From Thermomicrobiales bacterium (GTDB lineage Bacteria > Chloroflexota > Chloroflexia > Thermomicrobiales > UBA6265): a stretch of 64,000 bases of DNA. The notes under the pieces were generated by a model that was given only the letters and a program-made list of their open reading frames with translations, made no database searches and was not told the origin of the DNA. Location of the stretch: contig JAHBVL010000001.1 of NCBI GenBank assembly GCA_019637585.1, positions 496,001 through 560,000 of the forward strand, in the 5' to 3' direction. This document shows positions 4,328 to 28,026 of the stretch, in pieces (positions within the stretch are counted from its first letter, which is position 1; each line of letters starts with the position of its first letter). The position numbers were made by a program, and so were the translations under genes.

Positions 4328-4442
4328 GAGGATAGGGCGATCCTGTCCGTGGTGCGGAAGCGACGCTGCAACGAAGGCTTCGGACGCCGGTTCTCAAGCG
4401 GAACAGGCGGTCCATCGAAGCCACATGGATTGTACTTAACGA

Positions 4443-4504
4443 GGCGGAGAGGCGGAGAGGCGGAGAGGCGGAGAGGCGGAGAGGCGGAGAGGCGGAGAGG
4501 CGGA
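4443..4504. repeat. 8-bp tandem repeat (GGCGGAGA)n
   Basis: Seven perfect copies of GGCGGAGA and a partial eighth lie upstream of the peptidase pair. Because the unit is 8 bp, copy-number slippage would alter spacing between any promoter at about 4500-4560 and the gene starting at 4327. The tract produces meaningless repetitive peptides in all frames. Confidence 0.9.
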
Positions 4505-8962: not shown

Positions 8963-10317
8963 CCGATCACTTCGACCAAACCGTCAACCGATTCTGGGAC
9001 GACCTCGCCGCGGCCCGCTATCCGACGGTAGAGATCGAACCAGAGAGCGCCCGAACGATCGCGGGGCTCCACTCCCTCTTCCCGGCGTCCTTGCCGGTCT
9101 CGGCTCGCGAGCGAGCCCGGCAGCGCGTGTTTCAGTCTTCCGCTCTACCTCAGGAGAACACAATGACTGCCATTTCGATTCCGGTTTCGTGTCCCGCGCC
9201 GAACGGGACCAGGGCGACGGCTGTGCCAGCGCCGCCATTGCCGCATCGCCCCCGACACCAGCCCCGCTTCATCGCATTCTCGATAGCAGCGGTCGTGCTG
9301 TTGCTGCTCGCCGGCATCGGCGCCTACCTGGCGCTCGTTCCGGAACACGATCGCCTCTTCGGCGGCGGGGACAACAATCACGTGATTCCAGCCGCGCAAC
9401 CGGCATTCGACCCCACAGACGTCTCCGTCATCTGGGAAACGGGTGGAACCGTTGACCATCCGCTTGAGTGGCCAGTCGCGGTGGCGATTGCTCCCGACGG
9501 CAACGTCTATGTCGCCAATGCTTCCGCCAGCACCATTGAGGTTTTTTCACCAGCCGGCGAGCACCTGGAGTCCTGGGGTGAGGCAGGCGAAGGACCGGGC
9601 CAGTTTGCCTTTTCCTATGGAGTCTTCACGCTGGCCGACCTCGAGTTCGATAGTGACGGCAATCTTTTCGTCTTCGACTCGCTCAACGGTCGCATTCAGA
9701 AATTCGCTCCCGACCATACGTTCATCCTCGAATGGGGAACGTACGAGGTCGACGCCGACGCCCCAGGTGAGTTCGATCTGGTCATGGGCGGCGTGGATAG
9801 CGATCTGGGACTGGTGTATGCCTCCGATCGAACCGGCCGGATCCAGGTATTCGACCTTGATGGCAACTATCAGTACCAGTGGGGTTCGACCGGCATCGGC
9901 CCCGGTGAGTTCACCTACCCATGGGATGTCGATGTCGTCGACGGACGGGTCTTCATCGTCGATGAGGGTTCGATTTACGAAATTCCCAAGGGGGACCCCC
10001 GCGTGCAGGAGTTCGACTCCTCTGGCGCATTGATCGAGGGACAGGGAGCGCTGGGAAGCTTCTTCTCCGACTTCAGCTCGACCACCCACTTCATCGAATT
10101 CGACCCGACCGGCAGGCTCTTTGTGGCCGACTATGAAGCGCGTGCCGTTCGCATCGCATCGGAAGACGGCCGGCTGATCGACAGCCTGATCAACCTGCCG
10201 GGAGGACTGTCGCTCGCCGGCCCAAGCGGTATGGCCTTCGACGACGAAGGCAATCTCTATCTCGTCGATGACCTCACCAATCTCCTGATCAAGGTGGCCA
10301 TTCCGCCAGGCGAATAG
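8959..10317 (+). CDS. Membrane NHL-repeat beta-propeller protein, candidate anti-sigma/sensor
   Basis: The 452-residue protein has a cytosolic N-terminal part (about 1-100), one transmembrane helix (about 102-125), and an external propeller of NHL-type repeats (for example VAIAPDGNVYVANASAST, GNLFVFDSLNGRIQKF and GLVYASDRTGRIQVFD). Coupled 4-bp overlap with the sigma gene and this topology suggest a membrane anchor that holds the sigma factor and senses something outside. No zinc anti-sigma motif is present, so this is inference. An internal ATG at 9163 has a strong AGGAG site and is in frame, so a shorter form lacking the first 68 residues may also be made. Confidence 0.75.
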   Translation: MTDHFDQTVNRFWDDLAAARYPTVEIEPESARTIAGLHSLFPASLPVSARERARQRVFQSSALPQENTMTAISIPVSCPAPNGTRATAVPAPPLPHRPRHQPRFIAFSIAAVVLLLLAGIGAYLALVPEHDRLFGGGDNNHVIPAAQPAFDPTDVSVIWETGGTVDHPLEWPVAVAIAPDGNVYVANASASTIEVFSPAGEHLESWGEAGEGPGQFAFSYGVFTLADLEFDSDGNLFVFDSLNGRIQKFAPDHTFILEWGTYEVDADAPGEFDLVMGGVDSDLGLVYASDRTGRIQVFDLDGNYQYQWGSTGIGPGEFTYPWDVDVVDGRVFIVDEGSIYEIPKGDPRVQEFDSSGALIEGQGALGSFFSDFSSTTHFIEFDPTGRLFVADYEARAVRIASEDGRLIDSLINLPGGLSLAGPSGMAFDDEGNLYLVDDLTNLLIKVAIPPGE

Positions 10318-18004: not shown

Positions 18005-18033
18005 TTGACTGCGCTGTCGATGGTAAATAGAAT
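18005..18033 (+). promoter_or_regulatory. Predicted sigma-70 promoter upstream of the solo-repeat element
   Basis: TTGACT (18005-18010) and TAGAAT (18028-18033) are separated by exactly 17 bases, each with one mismatch to consensus. No gene starts nearby. The first structured thing downstream is the inverted-repeat element with the solitary CRISPR repeat at 18309-18463, so this promoter could produce a non-coding RNA or a long cas leader. The stretch 17824-18308 otherwise holds no convincing gene. Confidence 0.55.
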
Positions 18034-18308
18034 CTTCGTTAATTCTACCTGTCTGTGTTGTACATAAGTGAGGAGGCATTGTGTTTCGAGACACCTTCAC
18101 ACAACGACGTCTCGCCGTGAGTCGAGAGAACTGGCATGATCGGGTCGCCATCGAGATGGTCGAAACAACATTGGAGCGCCGCTGGGAGTGCAATGCCGAT
18201 GGTTCCGACCCTGGGACAGGCAATCGGCAGTCGCCAGATCTCTACTGCGATCAAGGCGACGAAGAAACTGGATGAGTTCCGACGCAAGAACGGGGAGCCG
18301 TCGAGGCA

Positions 18309-18463
18309 TCTCAGACGAGAGTCATCAACAACGCGTCGCTCCCTGACTCCGGTCAGGGAGAGGATTGAAACATTCTGCCTGTGTGCGTTGATCTCCGTAG
18401 CAGGACCAAAAACAACCCCCAATGGAGGCTCCTCCAGGTGTTGTTGATGACTCTCGTCTGAGA
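18309..18463 (+). ncRNA. Candidate structured RNA element: long hairpin enclosing a solo CRISPR repeat
   Basis: Bases 18309-18334 and 18438-18463 are complementary over 26 positions with a single G-T wobble (the outer 23, up to 18331 and from 18441, are perfect). The enclosed segment begins exactly with a full copy of the array repeat (18335-18371) and continues with 66 nt that hold a second small hairpin (TGGAGG-CT-CCTCCA, 18423-18436). A transcript would fold into a long stem whose loop displays the repeat hairpin. It ends 3 bp before the -35 box of the cas promoter. Possible identities: an autoregulatory leader cut or bound by Cas5c, a crRNA-like regulator, or a MITE-like insertion with terminal inverted repeats. 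No transcript evidence is available. Confidence 0.5.
18335..18371 (+). CRISPR. Solitary CRISPR repeat upstream of cas3
   Basis: All 37 bases are identical to the major repeat type of the array at 26329-28026, in the same orientation as the cas genes. No second repeat is found at the expected distance of about 34-38 bp, so it is not a minimal array. Its perfect conservation, 8 kb away from the array, suggests either recent origin or selection. Confidence 0.92.
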
Positions 18464-18466
18464 CGC

Positions 18467-18495
18467 TTGACAGTGAAGAACATGCGTTCTATTAT
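18467..18495 (+). promoter_or_regulatory. Predicted sigma-70 promoter of the cas operon
   Basis: A perfect TTGACA (18467-18472), 17-base spacer and TATTAT (18490-18495) give one of the strongest promoter matches in the window. Transcription would start near 18502, shortly before the cas3 start at 18538. The right arm of the long inverted repeat ends at 18463, so anything binding there could block the promoter. Confidence 0.75.
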
Positions 18496-18537
18496 CTTTC
18501 ACAAGTGAATTCCACATATGAAGCAGGTAGACGGGGA

Positions 18538-20781
18538 ATGTTGTACGCACACACTCCTAACGGCGACGGTCCATGGCACGATCTGGACGAACATCTGCTA
18601 GCCGTGGCTGAGTTGGCGTCACAATATGCGGGAGCATTTGGGGCGGGCGGGCTAGGTCGAATTGCGGGACTGCTGCACGACCTGGGCAAGGCCTCTCCAG
18701 ATTTCCAGGACTATCTCAAGCGCTCCAACGCAGAACCGAAAAAGCGGTTCCAATCAGTTGATCACAAGGGTGCTGGCGCTGTCGCTTCGGCAAAGCTCTT
18801 TCAGCCTCTGTCGATGCTCATTCAAGGTCACCATGGCGGACTTCCTGACGCCGGGGATTGGAAGTCATGGATGGCCGAGCGGTCGGTGAGTCCCTATCGA
18901 GAGCTGGTAGAGGCGGCCAATCTCCATGCGGACCGTCATGCCCTTCCCCGTCCGGTTCTCGATGACACTGATCTGCTGGTGATACAAAAACTCGGAACAA
19001 CGCCAGTCGATTTCGAGATGTTTCTCCGGATGCTTTTCTCTGCACTCGTCGACGCAGATCACACGGACACTGAACGCTATCGGAATCCACGGGATGCCGC
19101 TCACCGTCGAACACCACCGGAGCTCGTCCAGTTCGATGAGATGCTCACGGCGAACCAGGCTGAGAAATCTGGACTATCGGACAGTCCGGTGAACCTGATT
19201 CGCCATGAGGTGTATCTCTCAGCACTTGCGGCAGCCGAGCTTCCCCCGGGACTCTTCAAACTCACCGTTCCAACAGGTGGAGGCAAGACTCGAAGTAGCC
19301 TCGCGTTCGCATTGCGACACGCTGTCCGGCATGAACTGCGCCGGGTCATTGTGGTCTCGCCATACTTGACGATCACCGATCAAACCGCTGACGAGTACCG
19401 GTCGATTCTGGGCGACGGCGTCGTTCTCGAACACCATGGCGACGCCGCTCGACACGACGACTCCGAAGGCGCCTCGACTCCAGAGGCCGAGTGGCGACGG
19501 GTCTCCTCGCAGAATTGGGATGCCTCGATCGTGGTCACCACTGCCGTTCAATTCTTCGAGAGCCTCTTCAGCAACCGGACGACCAGGTGCCGGAAGTTGC
19601 ACCGCATCGTGAAGAGCGTGGTCATCATCGACGAACCCCAGACACTGCCGACACAGCTTTTGGAATCAATGGCGGATGGGATCCGTCAGCTCGTTACCCT
19701 TTACGGCACGACGGTTCTTCTGTGCTCAGCCACACAACCGGCGCTGGATGAGCTGTCCAAACGAACCGGGTTACCGGCGGCCCATGAGATCGCACCAGAG
19801 CCGTCACGGCTGTTTCGTGACCTCGAGAGAGTGACATTCGATTGGCCAGACTCAGAACAGACATCAAGCTGGGACGAAATAGCGGAGAATCTGCGAAAAG
19901 AGCATCAAGTGCTCTGTATCGTCAACTCTCGACCGAACGCCCTGTCACTCTTGGAAGCGCTGAACGACGCAGAAAACCTGCATCTCAGTACCCTCCTTTG
20001 CCCTGCACATCGGAGAGATGTGCTTCAAGTGATTCATCGCCGAATCAACGCTGGATTACCCTGCCGGGTCGTCAGCACACAAGTCGTTGAGGCCGGTGTT
20101 GACCTCGATTTCCCCAGTGTTTATCGGGCAATCGGCCCACTGGACCGAATTGTCCAGGCCGCAGGACGATGTAATCGGGAAGGGAAACTGCACAGGGGTG
20201 CTGTAACGGTGTTTGAGCCTGTAGAAGGATCCCTTCCTACTGGTGCATACAAGACCGCGACCGAACAAACAAAGATCGAGCTCGCTCGCGGGTCGGTTGA
20301 TCCACACGATCCGGCGACATTCGAGCGATACTTCCGGTCTGTGTACAACAAGGTTTCATTGGATCAGAAGGCAATACAGGACGCTCGCGCGGCGCTTGAG
20401 TTCGAGACGGTCAACGACAAGTTCCGCATGATCCCTGACGACTCTGTATCGGTCATTGTCAGGTATCAGGGGCTACGCCCCGACGAGTTGAATGAGGAGC
20501 CCGATGTCGACCACGCCGCCATACGCGAAAGTCTTGTTACTCAGCTTAAGAAGTCAATTCGGTACGGTTCCGGACACCTGCCGCGGGATGTTGTCCGCAG
20601 GCTTCAGCCGTACATGGTCAGCATGAGGCGCGGTTTTGTCGAGCGCCGGGGTTCCGCTGATTCCGGACTGGTTCATCTGGGAGGAGATATCTGGGAGTGG
20701 GAAGGAGGCTATCACCCGATTTTAGGAATAGGGCGAATGGATGCGGCCGCGTGGGATGCTGCCGATCTCGTCATTTCATGA
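18538..20781 (+). CDS. cas3: CRISPR-associated nuclease-helicase Cas3 (type I-C)
   Basis: The 747-residue protein has an N-terminal HD nuclease domain (H19, the H47-D48 pair in GLLHDLGKASPDF, and the HHGGLPD motif) fused to a superfamily 2 helicase: Walker A VPTGGGKT (about residues 244-251), DEPQ box IIDEPQTLP (about 365), LCSATQPAL, and motif VI QAAGRCNREG. Cas3 is recruited by DNA-bound Cascade to unwind and degrade the target. I prefer ATG 18538, preceded by AGGT/GGGGA and matching the usual N-terminus; a GTG at 18505 would add 11 residues and be almost leaderless. It is first in a seven-gene cas operon; the cas5c ribosome site abuts its stop. Confidence 0.97.
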   Translation: MLYAHTPNGDGPWHDLDEHLLAVAELASQYAGAFGAGGLGRIAGLLHDLGKASPDFQDYLKRSNAEPKKRFQSVDHKGAGAVASAKLFQPLSMLIQGHHGGLPDAGDWKSWMAERSVSPYRELVEAANLHADRHALPRPVLDDTDLLVIQKLGTTPVDFEMFLRMLFSALVDADHTDTERYRNPRDAAHRRTPPELVQFDEMLTANQAEKSGLSDSPVNLIRHEVYLSALAAAELPPGLFKLTVPTGGGKTRSSLAFALRHAVRHELRRVIVVSPYLTITDQTADEYRSILGDGVVLEHHGDAARHDDSEGASTPEAEWRRVSSQNWDASIVVTTAVQFFESLFSNRTTRCRKLHRIVKSVVIIDEPQTLPTQLLESMADGIRQLVTLYGTTVLLCSATQPALDELSKRTGLPAAHEIAPEPSRLFRDLERVTFDWPDSEQTSSWDEIAENLRKEHQVLCIVNSRPNALSLLEALNDAENLHLSTLLCPAHRRDVLQVIHRRINAGLPCRVVSTQVVEAGVDLDFPSVYRAIGPLDRIVQAAGRCNREGKLHRGAVTVFEPVEGSLPTGAYKTATEQTKIELARGSVDPHDPATFERYFRSVYNKVSLDQKAIQDARAALEFETVNDKFRMIPDDSVSVIVRYQGLRPDELNEEPDVDHAAIRESLVTQLKKSIRYGSGHLPRDVVRRLQPYMVSMRRGFVERRGSADSGLVHLGGDIWEWEGGYHPILGIGRMDAAAWDAADLVIS

Positions 20782-20793
20782 AAGGAGCTGGCC

Positions 20794-21423
20794 GTGAGCT
20801 ACGACGCTCCGGTTGCCGTCAAGGTTTGGGGAAAGTACGCCTGCTTCACACGACCCGAAATGAAAGCCGAGCGGGTCAGTTATCCCGTGATGACGCCCAC
20901 CGCCGCGCGAGGCGTGCTCGAGTCGATCTACTGGAAGCCCGAGTTTCAGTGGATAGTCGATGAAATCTGGATGTTGAAGGATGTCGACTTCGTGTCCATC
21001 AAGCGAAACGAGGTCTCGAATGTGGCGTCTGAACGCTCCGCCAGGAACTGGGCAGTCTCAGGTGGCGGATATGTCGCAGCCGAGGACCGGACGCAGCGTC
21101 ATACGCTCGCTCTGCAGAATGTCGCCTATGTTGTACGAGGTCGGCCGGTGCCGCGCATTTCCGGGGTCGATGAAGCCAAGTTTCGGGATCAGTTTCGGAG
21201 GCGAGTACGCACCGGCCGATGCTTTCAGCAACCGTTTCTCGGCTGCCGTGAGTTCGTCGCCTTCTTTGAGGAACCATCCGACGAGGATCGCCCGCTGAAT
21301 GTGACCGGCTCGATCGGTCGGATGCTCCTGGATTTCGATCGGACTGGCACATCGGTCAAACCAGTCTTCTTCGATGCGTGGCTGCAGGATGGCGTCCTGT
21401 CCGTTCCCATGAGCGAGGCGTAA
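20794..21423 (+). CDS. cas5c: Cas5c (Cas5d) repeat-processing endoribonuclease
   Basis: The 209-residue protein is the type I-C Cas5, which in this subtype replaces Cas6: it cuts pre-crRNA at the base of the repeat hairpin and then stays in Cascade holding the 5' handle. Visible features are the N-terminal RAMP strand (VAVKVWGKYACFTRPE), the PTAARGVLESIYWKPE helix with Y46, and the RTQRHTLALQNVAYVV segment (R102-H103 a candidate for the catalytic basic pair described in other Cas5d proteins). Start GTG 20794 follows AAAGGAG. A solo repeat in the cas leader region would be a possible substrate for it. Confidence 0.95.
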   Translation: MSYDAPVAVKVWGKYACFTRPEMKAERVSYPVMTPTAARGVLESIYWKPEFQWIVDEIWMLKDVDFVSIKRNEVSNVASERSARNWAVSGGGYVAAEDRTQRHTLALQNVAYVVRGRPVPRISGVDEAKFRDQFRRRVRTGRCFQQPFLGCREFVAFFEEPSDEDRPLNVTGSIGRMLLDFDRTGTSVKPVFFDAWLQDGVLSVPMSEA

Positions 21424-21424
21424 G

Positions 21425-23158
21425 ATGTTCCTGCAACAGCTGGTTGACTATGCAGATCGGGAGCTCTCCCTCCCGCCACCAATGTACCAATGGCAGCCGA
21501 TTCGCTACGTCATCGAACTCGACGCTACGGGCCAATATCTCGGGTTCTCGGATAGCCGTGATCCCGGTGACAAGTCGACCGATCGAGGCGTGCCAAGGCT
21601 GGCGCCTCACGTCAAACGATCGTCAGGCATTCGTCCGAAACTGCTGGCAGACACCGGCGAATACGCCCTTGGCGCCGCGGCGGAGGAGAGCAAGCCGGAA
21701 CGCGTGGCATCACAACATGCGGCTTTTCTGGCCCAGCTCGAGAGTGCTCGCGAAATGCTCGATGACAACGATATCGAAGCTGTCATCACTTTCCTCAAAT
21801 CTCCCCGGAAAGAGTCCCTTGTACAGGAAGGGGGACTCGATCCGAAAGCTCAGCTCACGTTCGTTGTCGACGGACGCTGGCTTATTGATAAGCCCACGGT
21901 TCAACGTGCATGGCAGGTTCTTTCCGGCGAACGCGCATCGGGCGGACCAGAAATGACCTGCATCATCTGCGGTGTCGATCAACCTGTGCTCGATCGACAC
22001 CCACTCAAGATCAAGGGCATTCGCGAAGGGCAATCGGCAGGGACCGATCTCATATCCGCCAATGCGCCGGCTTTCGAATCGTACGGATTGAAGAACTCAC
22101 TGATAGCCCCGACATGTCAGAGCTGTGCAGAGAAGTACGGAAATGCACTGAATGCTCTGTTGGCCAGTCCGCGCACACATCTGCATTCAGCTGGTGTCGA
22201 GTACATCTTCTGGACGAGATCGGCAAGTGCGGGTTTCAATCCGGCGGCTTTGCTCTCCGATCCGTCGCCCGAAGAAGTACGCAATCTCTACGAAGCGCCC
22301 GACAAAGCACGCACCGCGACGACCAACATCGACTCGGATCGATTCTATGCCGCCGCTCTGGGCGCCAGTGGAAGCCGGGCGGCCCTGCTCAGTTGGATCG
22401 ACGCAAGTGTGGAAGAGGTGCGGCAAAGCCTCATCGACTGGTTCGCTATGCAGAGCTTCGTTGACTCCAATGGCGATCCGGGGAAGGCACTCGGCGCGTG
22501 GCAGATCGCTGGCGCTACGGTACGTGATCCCCGAAAAGAGAAGCCGGTTCCTGCGATATCGGCAGCATTGTTGCAGACGGCATTTACCGGCGTGCCGCTG
22601 CCCCAACAACTTCTCGATCTCTGCGTTCGCCGGAACCGGGCAGAACAGGGGGTCAAGAGGCAGAGGGCAGTCGCAATCAAGCTGGTTCTTTGTTCACGGC
22701 AACCAAGCGCAAGGGAGGAGTGGAAAGCGATGAGCGAACTAAGTCCGACGAACTTCGATCCTGCATATCTCTGTGGCAGGCTCCTGGCAGTGCTCGAGTC
22801 GATCCAGAAAAGGGCTCTGAACAACCCGAACGCCACAATCGTCGACCGCTACTACGGTTCGGCATCATCTGCTCCTGCTTCTGTGTTCGGGACGCTCCTT
22901 CATGGTGCGCAACCACACCTCTCGAAGATGGCGAAAAACGAGCGGAGTCGGGGAGCATCTATTGCGTTGAATCGACGACTGGAGGATGTCCTCGAGCACT
23001 TGCATGAATTCCCAGTCACGTTGACGCTGCAGGAGCAGGGACTCTTCGCGCTCGGCTATTACCACCAGCGCGCGGAAGACCGGCGAGGCGCCCGCGAGCG
23101 TGGCGAAGCCGCGGCGGAAACAGAAGAGACGTTGCCTGATGAAACGCCAGACGCGTAG
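21425..23158 (+). CDS. cas8c: Cas8c (Csd1) large subunit of type I-C Cascade
   Basis: The 577-residue protein is the PAM-recognising large subunit. It has the Csd1 N-terminus (FLQQLVDYADREL), a zinc-finger-like pair of Cys motifs (CIIC near residue 179 and CQSC about 60 residues later), and a helical C-terminal part. The gene starts one base after the cas5c stop. The last quarter contains an in-frame ribosome site and ATG (22730) that should produce the small subunit Cas11c separately. Length is close to usual for the family. The 84-bp gap after it before cas7c has no evident promoter. Confidence 0.95.
   Translation: MFLQQLVDYADRELSLPPPMYQWQPIRYVIELDATGQYLGFSDSRDPGDKSTDRGVPRLAPHVKRSSGIRPKLLADTGEYALGAAAEESKPERVASQHAAFLAQLESAREMLDDNDIEAVITFLKSPRKESLVQEGGLDPKAQLTFVVDGRWLIDKPTVQRAWQVLSGERASGGPEMTCIICGVDQPVLDRHPLKIKGIREGQSAGTDLISANAPAFESYGLKNSLIAPTCQSCAEKYGNALNALLASPRTHLHSAGVEYIFWTRSASAGFNPAALLSDPSPEEVRNLYEAPDKARTATTNIDSDRFYAAALGASGSRAALLSWIDASVEEVRQSLIDWFAMQSFVDSNGDPGKALGAWQIAGATVRDPRKEKPVPAISAALLQTAFTGVPLPQQLLDLCVRRNRAEQGVKRQRAVAIKLVLCSRQPSAREEWKAMSELSPTNFDPAYLCGRLLAVLESIQKRALNNPNATIVDRYYGSASSAPASVFGTLLHGAQPHLSKMAKNERSRGASIALNRRLEDVLEHLHEFPVTLTLQEQGLFALGYYHQRAEDRRGARERGEAAAETEETLPDETPDA
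22730..23158 (+). CDS. cas11c: Cas11c small subunit, internal translation product of cas8c
   Basis: Inside cas8c and in the same frame, AGGGAGGAG (about 22712-22720) precedes ATG 22730 by 9 bases. The resulting 142-residue product (beginning MSELSPTNFDPAYLCGRLLA) is helical and of the right size. Type I-C systems are known to make Cas11 from an internal start in cas8c, where copies line the Cascade belly and stabilise the DNA. The strong site well within a coding region supports that here. Confidence 0.8.
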   Translation: MSELSPTNFDPAYLCGRLLAVLESIQKRALNNPNATIVDRYYGSASSAPASVFGTLLHGAQPHLSKMAKNERSRGASIALNRRLEDVLEHLHEFPVTLTLQEQGLFALGYYHQRAEDRRGARERGEAAAETEETLPDETPDA

Positions 23159-23242
23159 CCAGAGCGAAAATTGCGAACTTGCCAGAGTCTGATTGACCGT
23201 CACATGTCGAGTCATTCGATAACCTGAAAAGGAGTCAAGAGA

Positions 23243-24160
23243 ATGTCCGTTTCCACAGCGATCGCACCACATCTCGATGCGCAGCGACGTCAGGATGCTG
23301 TTCTGATCTTCGACGTGTCCGACGGCAATCCAAATGGAGATCCCGATGCCGGCAACTTGCCACGCGTCGATCCGGAGACCATGCAAGGGCTGGTTACCGA
23401 TGTTGCGATCAAACGCAAGATTCGCGATTGGGTGGATGCGACCCGAGGCACGTCGGAGCGGTTCAAGATCTACGTTCAGGGGCAGGAGTCACTCAACAGC
23501 ATGCACCAGCGCGCCTACTCCGCGCTGGGTCTCACCTCAAAAGGAACGAAGCAGAACAGAGGAGATGTCGACCAGGCGAGAGCCTGGATGTGTGAAAACT
23601 TTTTCGATATTCGAACATTCGGTGCAGTGATGAGCACGGGAGTAAACGCAGGTCAAGTTCGTGGTCCCGTTCAGATCACATTTGCCCGGAGCTTCGACCC
23701 TATCACGCCGCTCGACCTGTCGATCACACGAATTGCCATCACCAAAACGGAGGACATGGGATTTGCTGAGGGTGATGACGATGGGCGCGGCGGGAAGCGA
23801 ACAGAAATGGGTCGTAAGTCGTTCGTTCCATACGGTTTGTATCGGGCGCATCTGTTCGTCAACCCGGCCTTTGGCGAGCAAACCGGATTCGACAACGATG
23901 ATCTTGCGGTGATCTGGGAGGCGCTGGAAAGGATGTGGGATCTGGATCGTTCCGCCTCTCGCGGAATGATGGCTTGTCGTGGTCTTCTGGTGTTCAGTCA
24001 CGACCACAAGCTTGGCAACGCGCCGGCCCACAAGCTCTTTGACCGCGTACACATCGAGAGAGCGAGCGATGTGGCCGCTCCCAGATCATTTGCCGATTAC
24101 TCGATCGTCGTGGACGAGAGCGAACTGCCCGATGGCGTTACGCTGACCCGCCTCGTGTAG
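23243..24160 (+). CDS. cas7c: Cas7c (Csd2) backbone subunit of type I-C Cascade
   Basis: The 305-residue protein forms the crRNA-binding filament of Cascade. Motifs typical of Csd2 include the N-terminal DAVLIFDVSDGNPNGDPDAG, LPRVDPETMQGLVTDVAIKR, FFDIRTFGAVMSTG and the glycine-rich VRGPVQITFARS. The start ATG 23243 has AAAGGAG upstream. The lower part of the region between cas8c and cas7c is the only sizeable gap in the operon. Family identity is clear; length is standard. Confidence 0.97.
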   Translation: MSVSTAIAPHLDAQRRQDAVLIFDVSDGNPNGDPDAGNLPRVDPETMQGLVTDVAIKRKIRDWVDATRGTSERFKIYVQGQESLNSMHQRAYSALGLTSKGTKQNRGDVDQARAWMCENFFDIRTFGAVMSTGVNAGQVRGPVQITFARSFDPITPLDLSITRIAITKTEDMGFAEGDDDGRGGKRTEMGRKSFVPYGLYRAHLFVNPAFGEQTGFDNDDLAVIWEALERMWDLDRSASRGMMACRGLLVFSHDHKLGNAPAHKLFDRVHIERASDVAAPRSFADYSIVVDESELPDGVTLTRLV

Positions 24161-24162
24161 AC

Positions 24163-24828
24163 ATGGACGGTCGGCAGCCTCGGCCACAAGCATCTTGGGC
24201 GGACGACGATCTGGTGATGATCTCCGCGCTGGAGCATTGGAGTTATTGCCCGCGCCAGTGCGGACTGATCCATATCGAGTCGACATTCGACGAGAACCTG
24301 TACACCTTGCGCGGGCGGCGGCTGCACGAGCGCGTCCACGAACCGGGTGCTGATTGGGAAGACGGTGTGCGACGGGTGCGCGGCATGCCGCTCTTCTCCG
24401 TCTATCTCGGGCTTACGGGCAAAGCCGATCTCATCGAATTTCATGGTGAAACGCCCTATCCCGTGGAGTACAAGTCCGGATCAACGCGGGAGAGGCGCCA
24501 CGAGGCGTTGCAGCTTTGCGCGCAGGCGCTCTGTCTCGAAGAGATGCTGGGTGTCGCCGTGCCCGCCGGGGCGATTTTCGCCCAGGGATCGCGCAGACGG
24601 TCTGAGATCGCGTTCGACGACGAACTTCGGGCGCGCGTTCCGGCTGCTGTTGCGGAGGTTCGAACGATGTTGGGTGGAACGACGCTGCCTGCCGCGGCCA
24701 ACGACTCCCGGTGTCCGCGTTGCTCGTTGTTCGATGCCTGCCTGCCGGGTGTCGTCGATCAGGATGCCCGCATTCGCGGGTTTTTCGGCGAGCTTTTTCA
24801 TCCGGCCGCCGGGGACGATGCGCTGTGA
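24163..24828 (+). CDS. cas4: Cas4 exonuclease for spacer acquisition
   Basis: The 221-residue protein has the four iron-sulfur cysteines: YCPRQC near residue 29 and CPRCSLFDAC near the C-terminus. It also has the RecB-like nuclease core, with Asp in GLTGKADLIEF and Glu/Lys in VEYKSG. Cas4 trims pre-spacers and selects those with the right PAM before integration by Cas1-Cas2. It starts 2 bp after cas7c and overlaps the cas1 start (GTGA, 24825-24828), so it is tightly coupled. Confidence 0.96.
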   Translation: MDGRQPRPQASWADDDLVMISALEHWSYCPRQCGLIHIESTFDENLYTLRGRRLHERVHEPGADWEDGVRRVRGMPLFSVYLGLTGKADLIEFHGETPYPVEYKSGSTRERRHEALQLCAQALCLEEMLGVAVPAGAIFAQGSRRRSEIAFDDELRARVPAAVAEVRTMLGGTTLPAAANDSRCPRCSLFDACLPGVVDQDARIRGFFGELFHPAAGDDAL

Positions 24829-25856
24829 GAGAGCTGCTGAACACCCTCTATGTCACCACGCCATACGCCTATCTTCATCTGGAGAACGATACGGTGCGGG
24901 TGGAGGTCGACCGGGAACTGAAGTTGCGCGCACCCCTCATGCACATCGGTTCGATCGTCGTTTTCGGCGACACGCTGATATCCCCGGCATTGATTGCCCG
25001 TTGCGCCGAGGACAAGCGCTCGATTGTCTTCCTGAGCCACAACGGCCGGTTCGTCGCCCGGGTCGAAGGGCCGGTCGGGGGCAACGTCCTGCTGCGGCGG
25101 GCGCAGCATCTGGCATTGAGCGACTACGATCGCCGGCTCAGCATTGCGCGGAATATCCTGGCCGGAAAACTCCGCAACAGCCGTCATGTCATTCTGCGCG
25201 CTGCTCGGGACACGCCCGATGCTGACGAAAGTCGCCGGTTGCGCGAAGCGGCCAGCTGGATCGACGACATTCTCCGCCGGTTGCCGGAACGAGTCGATCT
25301 GGACATGCTGCGTGGGGATGAGGGCGAAGCGGGGCGGGAGTATTTTTCCGTTTTCCCAATGATGATTCGGGGCGACCGCACCACCTTCGGCATGGCGGGG
25401 AGATCGCGACGGCCTCCGCTCGATCGCACCAATGCACTTCTCTCCTTCCTTTATACGTTGCTGCGCGCCGACTGCAATGCAGCCCTGGAAGGTGTCGGAC
25501 TCGACCCACAGGTGGGATTCCTGCATGCACTTCGGCCAGGACGACCAGCCCTGGCGCTCGATCTGATGGAGGAGTTGCGTCCAATTCTGGCCGATCGCCT
25601 GGCGCTGACGCTGATCAATCTCAAACAGTTGCAGGCAGACGACTTCGATGTGCACGACGGCGGTGCGGTCTATCTCAATGACCGCGGCCGCAAGACTGTG
25701 ATCGTCGCCTATCAGAAGCGCAAGGAAGACGAAGTCGACCATCGGGTGGTGGGGAAGAAGGTTCCACTGGGATTGGTGCCTCATCTCCAGGCGCGCCTTC
25801 TGGCCAGGCATCTTCGCGACGATCTGCGACACTATCTTCCCTTCCTGATGCGATGA
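24825..25856 (+). CDS. cas1: Cas1 spacer integrase
   Basis: The 343-residue protein is the integrase of the adaptation complex. The C-terminal helical domain carries the metal triad: Glu in NAALEGVGLDP, His in VGFLHALRPGR, and acidic residues in ALDLMEELRP. The N-terminal beta domain starts LLNTLYVTTPYAYLHLENDT, typical for type I-C. The correct start is GTG 24825, overlapping the cas4 stop; the open frame continues upstream to 24711 inside cas4, which is not real coding. Confidence 0.97.
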   Translation: MRELLNTLYVTTPYAYLHLENDTVRVEVDRELKLRAPLMHIGSIVVFGDTLISPALIARCAEDKRSIVFLSHNGRFVARVEGPVGGNVLLRRAQHLALSDYDRRLSIARNILAGKLRNSRHVILRAARDTPDADESRRLREAASWIDDILRRLPERVDLDMLRGDEGEAGREYFSVFPMMIRGDRTTFGMAGRSRRPPLDRTNALLSFLYTLLRADCNAALEGVGLDPQVGFLHALRPGRPALALDLMEELRPILADRLALTLINLKQLQADDFDVHDGGAVYLNDRGRKTVIVAYQKRKEDEVDHRVVGKKVPLGLVPHLQARLLARHLRDDLRHYLPFLMR

Positions 25857-25866
25857 GGGAATAGCG

Positions 25867-26163
25867 ATGCGCTGGGAAATCCTGGTGACCTACGACGTCA
25901 ACACGGAAACGAAAGCGGGACGCCGACGGTTGCGCAAAGTCGCGGCGATCTGCTCCGGATTCGGTCAGCGCGTTCAACTCTCGGTTTTCGAATGCAGGGT
26001 GACCCAGGCGCAGTATGAGGCGCTGGAAGCGCGGCTCCTTCAGGTCATCGACCCGGCCGAAGACCGGCTGCGGCTCTACCGGCTGCCGGCCGACCGGGAG
26101 AAATTCGTCCGCATTCATGGCATTCCGCTCGACCATGATATCCGCGAGCCGCTGATCGTCTAA
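25867..26163 (+). CDS. cas2: Cas2 adaptation protein
   Basis: The 98-residue protein has the ferredoxin-like Cas2 fold: first strand MRWEILVTYDVNTE with the conserved Asp, QRVQLSVFEC, and LRLYRLPADR. It forms the dimeric core of the Cas1-Cas2 integrase. It is the last gene of the operon; the leader begins immediately after its stop. Confidence 0.97.
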   Translation: MRWEILVTYDVNTETKAGRRRLRKVAAICSGFGQRVQLSVFECRVTQAQYEALEARLLQVIDPAEDRLRLYRLPADREKFVRIHGIPLDHDIREPLIV

Positions 26164-26328
26164 TCGTTGCGCGAACCGCCAGCACCCGCCACAATGCCGC
26201 CAGGTTCGCGAAAATCAATGCCCAATATCTCGGTAAAACAGCGTGAAAGCGAGCCTCCCCATTCACCTGGGCGCCAGCGAATGGGGAAAACGTGCGCGAA
26301 AGGAGGCATGTTTCGAGGAAATGGCGCC
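26164..26328 (+). promoter_or_regulatory. CRISPR leader
   Basis: This 165-bp segment separates cas2 from the first repeat and lacks a gene. It contains two inverted repeats: CGCGAACC / GGTTCGCG (26170-26177 and 26203-26210) and CCCCATTC / GAATGGGG (26257-26264 and 26279-26286). The second is 42 bp from the first repeat and could help position the Cas1-Cas2 integrase. New spacers should enter at 26329. Confidence 0.75.
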
Positions 26329-28026
26329 GTCGCTCCCTGACTCCGGTCAGGGAGAGGATTGAAACCGATTTTCGGAATTGTGTCAAGCAACACTACAACT
26401 GTCGCTCCCTGACTCCGGTCAGGGAGAGGATTGAAACGCCTGTTGAGCGAGAAATCGTCTTGCGCGCGTTGGTACGTCGCTCCCTGACTCCGGTCAGGGA
26501 GAGGATTGAAACAGGTTGTGGACAGCGCCAGTATGACGCCTGTCTATCCCGTCGCTCCCTGACTCCGGTCAGGGAGAGGATTGAAACAGGTAGTCAGAAT
26601 AACGTCAATTATGTGGACCAACGGTCGCTCCCTGACTCCGGTCAGGGAGAGGATTGAAACACCCAATCATGAGCCGTCGAAAAATCGAGGGGGTCGTCGC
26701 TCCCTGACTCCGGTCAGGGAGAGGATTGAAACGCTCCAACCCAGTCCGCAGATACTCCTCTGCTTTGGTCGCTCCCTGACTCCGGTCAGGGAGAGGATTG
26801 AAACTGTCTCGTCGTCAAATCCCACGCGCGCTATCACCGTCGCTCCCTGACTCCGGTCAGGGAGAGGATTGAAACCTTTCTGTGACCGTCTCCGAGCAAT
26901 CGGGGGCGGTGTCGCTCCCTGACTCCGGTCAGGGAGAGGATTGAAACATCGGAGTAGATCACCGTAATCTCCGGTGCAATCCGGTCGCTCCCTGACTCCG
27001 GTCAGGGAGAGGATTGAAACGTTTCGCCGCCGAGACCAACTGGCGACGCCAGCACGTCGCTCCCTGGCTTCGGTCAGGGAGAGGATTGAAACCGCCCACA
27101 TCTGTCGCGTCTCGATGCTCTGATCTCGTCGCTCCCTGGCTTCGGTCAGGGAGAGGATTGAAACCGGCCGAATCCGCCAGTTCGGAAGCGCTCGACTTCG
27201 TCGCTCCCTGGCTTCGGTCAGGGAGAGGATTGAAACGAGATGGATGCGCTAGTTAGGGCTCAGACCATTGGTCGCTCCCTGGCTTCGGTCAGGGAGAGGA
27301 TTGAAACTCGTACGCAACACTCGCTCCCGCCGGGGAGCGCCAAGTCGCTCCCTGGCTTCGGTCAGGGAGAGGATTGAAACGAACACGGGAGTGACGTCGA
27401 GTCCGGTGAATTCCTGTCGCTCCCTGGCTTCGGTCAGGGAGAGGATTGAAACCCCGGACTGGTGGAGCGGGCAACTGGGCTCTATTTGTCGCTCCCTGGC
27501 TTCGGTCAGGGAGAGGATTGAAACCAGTTGCGTGGAATCAAGAGCGCCATACTTGGCAATCGTCGCTCCCTGGCTTCGGTCAGGGAGAGGATTGAAACAG
27601 GGCAAGTACCACCACGTTTCAGGGACGGCGGCTGAGTCGCTCCCTGACTCCGGTCAGGGAGAGGATTGAAACAGCACCACCCGCGGGCCGATTGGCTCAA
27701 CCGGCTGTCGCTCCCTGACTCCGGTCAGGGAGAGGATTGAAACCTGGATTCTTCGCCTGCCCATCTGGTGAACGATGCCGGTCGCTCCCTGACTCCGGTC
27801 AGGGAGAGGATTGAAACGACCAATCGTCCAGCTCACCCTTGCCGCAGCTGGTCGGTCGCTCCCTGACTCCGGTCAGGGAGAGGATTGAAACGACCAATCG
27901 TCCAGCTCACCCTTGCCGCAGCTGGTCGGTCGCTCCCTGACTCCGGTCAGGGAGAGGATTGAAACGGTTGCTGGCTCGTGATTCCCAGGAAGATCATCAC
28001 GGTCGCTCCCTGGCTTCGGTCAGGGA
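26329..28026 (+). CRISPR. Type I-C CRISPR array: 23 full repeats plus a truncated 24th, 23 spacers
   Basis: Repeats are 37 bp, start GTCGCTCCCTG and end GGATTGAAAC, and fold into a 9-bp stem (CTCCCTGAC/GTCAGGGAG) with a 4-base loop. Spacers are 34-38 bp. Repeats 1-10 and 19-23 have A-C at the two variable sites (loop TCCG); repeats 11-18 and the truncated last one have G-T (loop TTCG). Spacers 21 (27818-27854) and 22 (27892-27928) are identical. The final copy (28002-28026) lacks its last 12 bases, as expected for the leader-distal end. Orientation matches the cas genes and the leader lies at the cas2 side, so spacer 1 is the youngest. Confidence 0.98.

Follow-up and report, generated by a model that had tools for sequence, protein, structure and literature searches.

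The closest described counterparts of the locus reported here are CreTA modules, in which a crRNA-like RNA, CreA, acts on the promoter of a toxin. In the two archaeal type I-B examples, from Halobacterium hubeiense and Haloarcula hispanica, CreA pairs with the toxin promoter through guide nucleotides 1-5 and 7-11. All ten of these bases proved necessary in H. hubeiense, where positions 6 and 12 are dispensable and creTA sits immediately upstream of cas under a single, autorepressed promoter, PcreTA (PMC8501985). In a bacterial type I-F system, CreA pairs along the first 20 nucleotides of its guide except at positions 6, 11, and 18 (PMC10097628). Two related arrangements are CreR, in which the guide of a standalone repeat shows partial complementarity to a promoter of the CRISPR locus, generally without a toxin gene, and CrePA, in which the toxin is a protein (PMC12737573). 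Solitary repeats also occur in viruses as Racrs, which have neither guide function nor cas linkage (PMC10651486). The CreTA literature that we examined treats types I-B and I-F, and we found no I-C case of the CreA type described in it. The principle itself is established, since standalone-repeat guides have reportedly been surveyed across type I systems by Shmakov et al. in 2023, possibly with I-C cases among them.

The locus lies in a window of 64,000 nucleotides (the whole stretch of DNA analyzed), and all of its features are on the plus strand unless stated otherwise. NCBIfam and PADLOC profiles identify a complete I-C operon encoding Cas3, Cas5c, Cas8c, Cas7/Csd2, Cas4, Cas1c, and Cas2. 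It begins with cas3 at 18538-20781 (PADLOC Cas3c, E = 1e-194; ATG start, with an alternative GTG at 18505) and continues with the Cascade genes cas5c, cas8c, and cas7 at 20794-24160 (TIGR01876, TIGR01863, and TIGR02589, all above cut-off), followed by cas4, cas1c, and cas2 at 24163-26163 (NCBIfam). The CRISPR array at 26329-27965 contains 23 full repeats. Its repeat variants, GACTCC and GGCTTC, are arranged in blocks, a truncated repeat near 28003 marks its end, and identical spacers, GACCAATCGTCCAGCTCACCCTTGCCGCAGCTGGTCG, follow positions 27781 and 27855 (window 27781-27965). Elsewhere in the window, a perfect 8-bp tandem repeat, GAGGCGGA, occurs eight times in succession at 4441-4504.

An intact I-C repeat of 37 nt stands alone at 18335-18371, upstream of cas3 and in the same orientation as the array repeats. 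It is identical to 15 array copies and differs from the other eight by two mismatches; nowhere else in the 3.94-Mb assembly does a copy occur outside the array. The solo repeat matches Rfam CRISPR-DR9 (E = 4e-6; 35.3 bits, under the 45-bit gathering score) and its hairpin folds at -19.8 kcal/mol; the last 11 nucleotides, AGGATTGAAAC, would form the predicted crRNA 5′ handle. It begins exactly where the left arm of an inverted repeat ends. The arms, at 18309-18334 and 18438-18463, form a 26-bp stem that contains a single G-T wobble; repeat search sets them in a slightly different register (18306-18332 and 18440-18466; 27 nt, 96% complementary). RNA folding of 18296-18475 yields -93.7 kcal/mol (z = -9.4), with none of 200 shuffles equally stable, and the start of the right arm has an alternative local pairing at about 18407-18448. 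The stem may be a by-product of inverted duplication. Between repeat and right arm lie a spacer-like guide, ATTCTGCCTGTGTGCGTTGATCTCCGTAGCAGGAC (18372-18406), and a weak small hairpin, TGGAGGCTCCTCCA (18423-18436), which is a candidate degenerate second repeat or 3′-end structure. Its likeness to the repeat was assessed by eye and is unconvincing, and 3′ of the guide there is neither a clear second repeat nor a good terminator.

Two σ70-like promoters flank this element, where 0.4 would be expected from the consensus scan. P1 (TTGACT-17-TAGAAT, 18005-18033, 10/12) lies upstream of it, and the cas promoter P2 (TTGACA-17-TATTAT, 18467-18495, 11/12) lies between the right arm and cas3. Perfect repeat, enclosing stem, small hairpin, and both promoters had all been described in an earlier note made from the sequence alone, and each was recovered here at the same position. 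The stretch AGGAGGCATTGTGTTTCGAG (18071-18090), in the predicted 5′ part of the transcript from P1, also resembles AGGAGGCATGTTTCGAG (26301-26317), with which the CRISPR leader ends, 11 nt ahead of the first array repeat: 17 of 17 nucleotides agree around a 3-nt insertion, a score reached by 17 of 2000 Markov shuffles. P1 may be leader-derived.

Because a repeat followed by unique sequence has the form of a crRNA gene, we searched for matches to the guide bases. On both strands of the 64-kb window and at lengths from 14 to 25, the guide matches best at 18042-18060, a partial protospacer in which 16 of 19 positions are identical to guide nucleotides 1-19. The match starts at guide position 1 and would pair at nucleotides 1-5, 7-11, 13-14, and 16-19, with mismatches at 6, 12, and 15; a full 35-nt protospacer would span 18042-18076. 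The target starts 8 nt past the -10 box of P1, at the predicted transcription start, which makes P1 the predicted target promoter. When the 16 contact positions of guide nucleotides 1-19 are scored (6, 12, and 18 left out), the pair reaches 15/16, against a maximum of 14 in 3000 Markov-randomized intergenic regions and of 12 for the 23 array spacers compared with the same P1 region. The seed pattern ATTCTNCCTGTNTGNGTTG has exact matches in the 3.9-Mb genome only at the guide itself and at the 18042 target. As the similarity starts at the repeat/guide junction and stops short of the repeat, a simple duplication is excluded.

The triplet 5′ of the target is TTA, whereas the I-C PAM is TTC. A search of INPHARED found no protospacers of the array spacers from which a PAM could be defined for this system, and a search of IMG/VR found none for five array spacers and none for the guide. 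Two other pairings were considered and rejected. Direct pairing of the guide with P2 yields no match above background. In the other, the left arm would be a guide and the right arm its protospacer, with a minus-strand TTC adjoining the right arm over the -35 element of P2; the left arm, however, has neither a repeat nor a handle in front of it, and its PAM-proximal bases align only with a gap.

The locus thus has the core common to the described repressor guides, that is, a repeat outside the array in the cas locus and a guide whose nucleotides 1-5 and 7-11 pair with a promoter region. Like the archaeal CreTA systems (I-B; PMC8501985), it places an ectopic repeat and guide beside cas and directs the guide to an upstream promoter on the same transcript. 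It differs from them in being a I-C system with Cas5c, in its intact repeat (theirs are degenerated), in showing no evident second repeat, in its TTA flank in place of TTC, in the lack of a recognized tiny ORF with rare codons, and in its 26-bp enclosing stem. The CreTA of Acinetobacter WCHA45 (I-F; PMC10097628) is similar in being bacterial and in pairing over the first 20 nucleotides except at scattered positions; it differs in its two repeats, I-F PAM, location in the cas3-csy1 gap, and conserved mini-ORF toxin. With CreR the locus shares a standalone repeat whose guide is in part complementary to a promoter of the CRISPR locus, but the guide here addresses P1 and not the promoter adjacent to cas3. 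With CrePA it shares a protein-coding candidate between target promoter and guide, although the candidate here contains no KilA-N or other recognized domain (PMC12737573).

We consider it likely that a CreA/CreR-type regulatory RNA, with the solo repeat as its 5′ unit, lets Cascade repress P1, and not P2. The anatomy of the element, the guide-target match, and its uniqueness are observed, and from them we infer the following course. A guide precursor would be transcribed from P1, or from a weak internal start, and cut by Cas5c at the repeat hairpin. I-C Cascade carrying the handle AGGATTGAAAC and the guide (ATTCTGCC...) would then pair with the first transcribed bases of P1 and block initiation. 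As long as Cascade is intact, P1 would repress itself in this way; loss or inhibition of Cascade, or its occupation by array crRNAs, would release the promoter. P1 would likely give rise to the product of a 64-aa ORF (a toxin or signal), to the guide, and to read-through transcripts of cas.

Two features of the pairing argue for this course. The mismatches at positions 6 and 12 reproduce the CreA rule, which supports a guide of the CreA type. The length of the match, 16-19 bp, would fit binding without cutting, since interference by a Xanthomonas I-C system required a match of at least 27 bp (PMC8406640); the short pairing should therefore keep Cas3 from cleaving the chromosome, and the guide probably silences P1 rather than directs cutting. 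The strength of the match relative to its controls also counts in favor, as do the ectopic repeats and guides before I-C cas3 in G439, G276, and G318, described below. Against it stand the non-consensus TTA flank, the lack of a convincing second repeat and of a good terminator, and the absence of the element from close relatives. The repeat is also undegenerated, in contrast to known creA genes, and P1 would itself need to produce the guide that represses it.

In a transcript from P1, repeat, guide, and small hairpin would all lie within the 26-bp stem. Its most plausible role, by analogy with the stems of pre-rRNA, would be as a stalk for RNase III processing or as an insulator of the element from the cas mRNA. 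To our knowledge, no crRNA-like RNA matures by means of a 26-bp double-stranded stalk.

These results bear on how the element could act on cas. The earlier note, referring to CreR, had proposed a regulatory RNA or operator-like element that would let Cas5c or Cascade adjust cas expression. The guide match supports a crRNA-like RNA, for which CreR is the right family, with P1 as its target in place of the cas promoter. We found nothing to support the inverted repeat as an operator, nor an action of Cas5c on the cas mRNA; the repeat is upstream of P2 and so is absent from any cas mRNA that starts there. Because the guide addresses P1 and misses P2, regulation of cas could at most be indirect, through P1 read-through.

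Downstream of P1, a Shine-Dalgarno-like AGGAGG (18071-18076) precedes a candidate ORF of 64 amino acids with a GTG start (18081-18275), located between P1 and the guide. Its codon score of 0.20 bits/codon resembles that of genes (0.28 ± 0.14; wrong frames, -0.23 ± 0.30), but its reverse frames also score high (0.16-0.17 bits/codon). Profile searches assign the ORF to no family, a homologue search gave only weak and partial matches, and a single-sequence model predicts a β hairpin with a disordered tail at low confidence (pTM 0.38). The ORF may encode a candidate toxin or yield no product at all. Within it, 30 bp at 18134-18163 share 90% identity with a segment of a gene from another genome (G012, L008), where the matching minus-strand frame contains VDHLDGDAIKL; the minus strand of the window reads FDHLDGDPIM. 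This stretch is possibly a gene remnant antisense to the ORF, or a chance resemblance.

A stronger version of repression at P1 would make the locus a CreTA or CrePA module proper, in which a toxin, either the 64-aa ORF or a small toxic RNA, is expressed from P1, the guide is the antitoxin, and cells that lose Cascade are poisoned. The order of promoter, ORF with a good AGGAGG, guide, and cas is that of H. hubeiense creTA, a protein-toxin version exists in CrePA (PMC12737573), and the coding score is compatible with a gene. Given that the ORF is an orphan, that its model is of low confidence, and that its score is compatible with chance too, we regard this version as possible but tentative. Quite unlikely is the full combination of a I-C addiction module in which Cascade and an intact-repeat guide repress a new 64-aa toxin and the precursor is excised by the 26-bp stalk.

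We surveyed the sequence upstream of I-C-type cas3 genes in the class, in the phylum, and in 80 GTDB loci. The 155-bp element itself is not conserved: a DNA search of 32 genomes of the family found no whole copy, and no close relative keeps it upstream of its I-C cas3. Such poor conservation is expected for a CreTA, whose modules are poorly conserved in sequence (PMC8501985). An initial scan of genome contigs with a single Cas3 gave nothing, and most surveyed I-C cas3 loci lack an ectopic repeat, but three other Chloroflexota carry one. In the search next to I-C operons that the earlier note had suggested, what recurs in the phylum is thus an ectopic repeat ahead of cas3 and not the element as a whole.

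One of the three, G439, belongs to another Chloroflexota family. Its ectopic repeat, with the handle GAGGATTGAAAT, lies 0.36 kb before a I-C cas3, and its guide, CATTACGGTATCTGTTC, would pair at nucleotides 1-5, 7-11, and 13-17 with a site that starts 6 nt past the -10 box of a promoter-like sequence before cas3 (TTCACA-17-TATACT; target flank CTC). This guide-target match is unequalled in 2000 shuffled regions and among the 61 array spacers of G439; the promoter is a consensus match only, in a region with no more such matches than its shuffles. The same scan found no guide-target pair in G317, the nearest I-C relative of G439 found (66% identical). Two further degenerate repeats occur in G439 about 490 and 420 nt before cas3 (L180 5464-6300), and a hairpin with a T-run comes after its guide. 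From its sequence, G439 is another I-C candidate for a CreR-like guide, with the promoter-like site before cas3 as the putative target.

The other two genomes, G276 (L179 5748-5930) and G318 (L072 5330-5440), represent two genera of one family and carry homologous ectopic repeats before I-C cas3, 77% identical over the element, with similar guides (TCTGCCCTTGCTCTCC and CTTGCCCTTGTTCTTC). Roughly one spacer length beyond the guide of G318 lies a repeat-like hairpin. Neither genome contains a match to the guide pattern except the guides themselves. No stem like the 26-bp one encloses the elements of G276 or G439, and 11-bp inverted arms in G318 are probably due to chance, being missing from the homologue in G276. 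An occurrence of GTTGAAAC 145 nt before cas3 in locus L039 was also taken as chance; it is not found in L023 despite a similar upstream region. In L102, a Neisseriales MAG, a long imperfect inverted repeat with arms of 40 and 27 nt lies upstream of cas3 (9381-9865); no CRISPR repeat accompanies the 40-nt inverted repeat near a GTTGAAAC. At the level of sequence, ectopic I-C guides before cas3 recur, and two distant loci share a predicted pairing rule and a similar geometry.

The G439 guide, aimed as it is at a promoter before I-C cas3, lends weight to a toxin-free alternative in which P1 serves cas as a second, more distal promoter whose read-through is lowered by the guide, as in CreR-type autoregulation of cas; the general lack of a toxin gene in CreR agrees with this (PMC12737573). 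A guide directed at the promoter of the cas operon is what G439 has and the window has not: here the guide matches P1 only, about 0.5 kb from cas3 and with P2 in between, and we hold cas autoregulation by this route to be a no more than tentative possibility. The locus might instead be the remnant of a minimal CRISPR, a self-derived spacer now functionless, with repeat and match decaying. One intact repeat with no second copy, the lack of conservation in relatives, and the non-consensus PAM would agree with decay; yet within nucleotides 1-14 only the non-contact positions 6 and 12 are mismatched, the repeat is preserved at 37 of 37 positions, and the target lies at a start site both here and in G439. 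We find such a remnant rather doubtful.

A decoy repeat of the Racr type, an RNA anti-CRISPR that titrates Cas5c or Cas7, would account for a solitary intact I-C repeat, and phage I-C Racrs exist (PMC10651486), but these are viral and have no cas association, whereas this element lies directly upstream of a complete host cas operon and its guide has a target, which makes a decoy very improbable. Least credible of all is a MITE that carries the repeat by chance, suggested by the 26-27 bp inverted arms around a unit of 160 bp and named in the earlier note among the findings that would refute its reading: neither arm has another copy in the whole genome at up to 3 mismatches, no target-site duplication is seen at the arm ends, and the uniqueness of the arms argues that the element is not a MITE.

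Repression of P1 by a Cascade-bound guide, the reading we favor, would extend a known mode of control to another processing system. The repressor guides of types I-B and I-F are made by Cas6 (PMC8501985, PMC10097628), whereas cutting in I-C is by Cas5c. Together, the locus in the window and G439 suggest that I-C systems of Chloroflexota use repressor guides too, with the target just past the -10 box and with free positions 6 and 12 common to both. The enclosing stem was found in no other such element in the comparisons made here. Guide, target, and compensating changes are all given by the sequence, so that the claim is directly testable.
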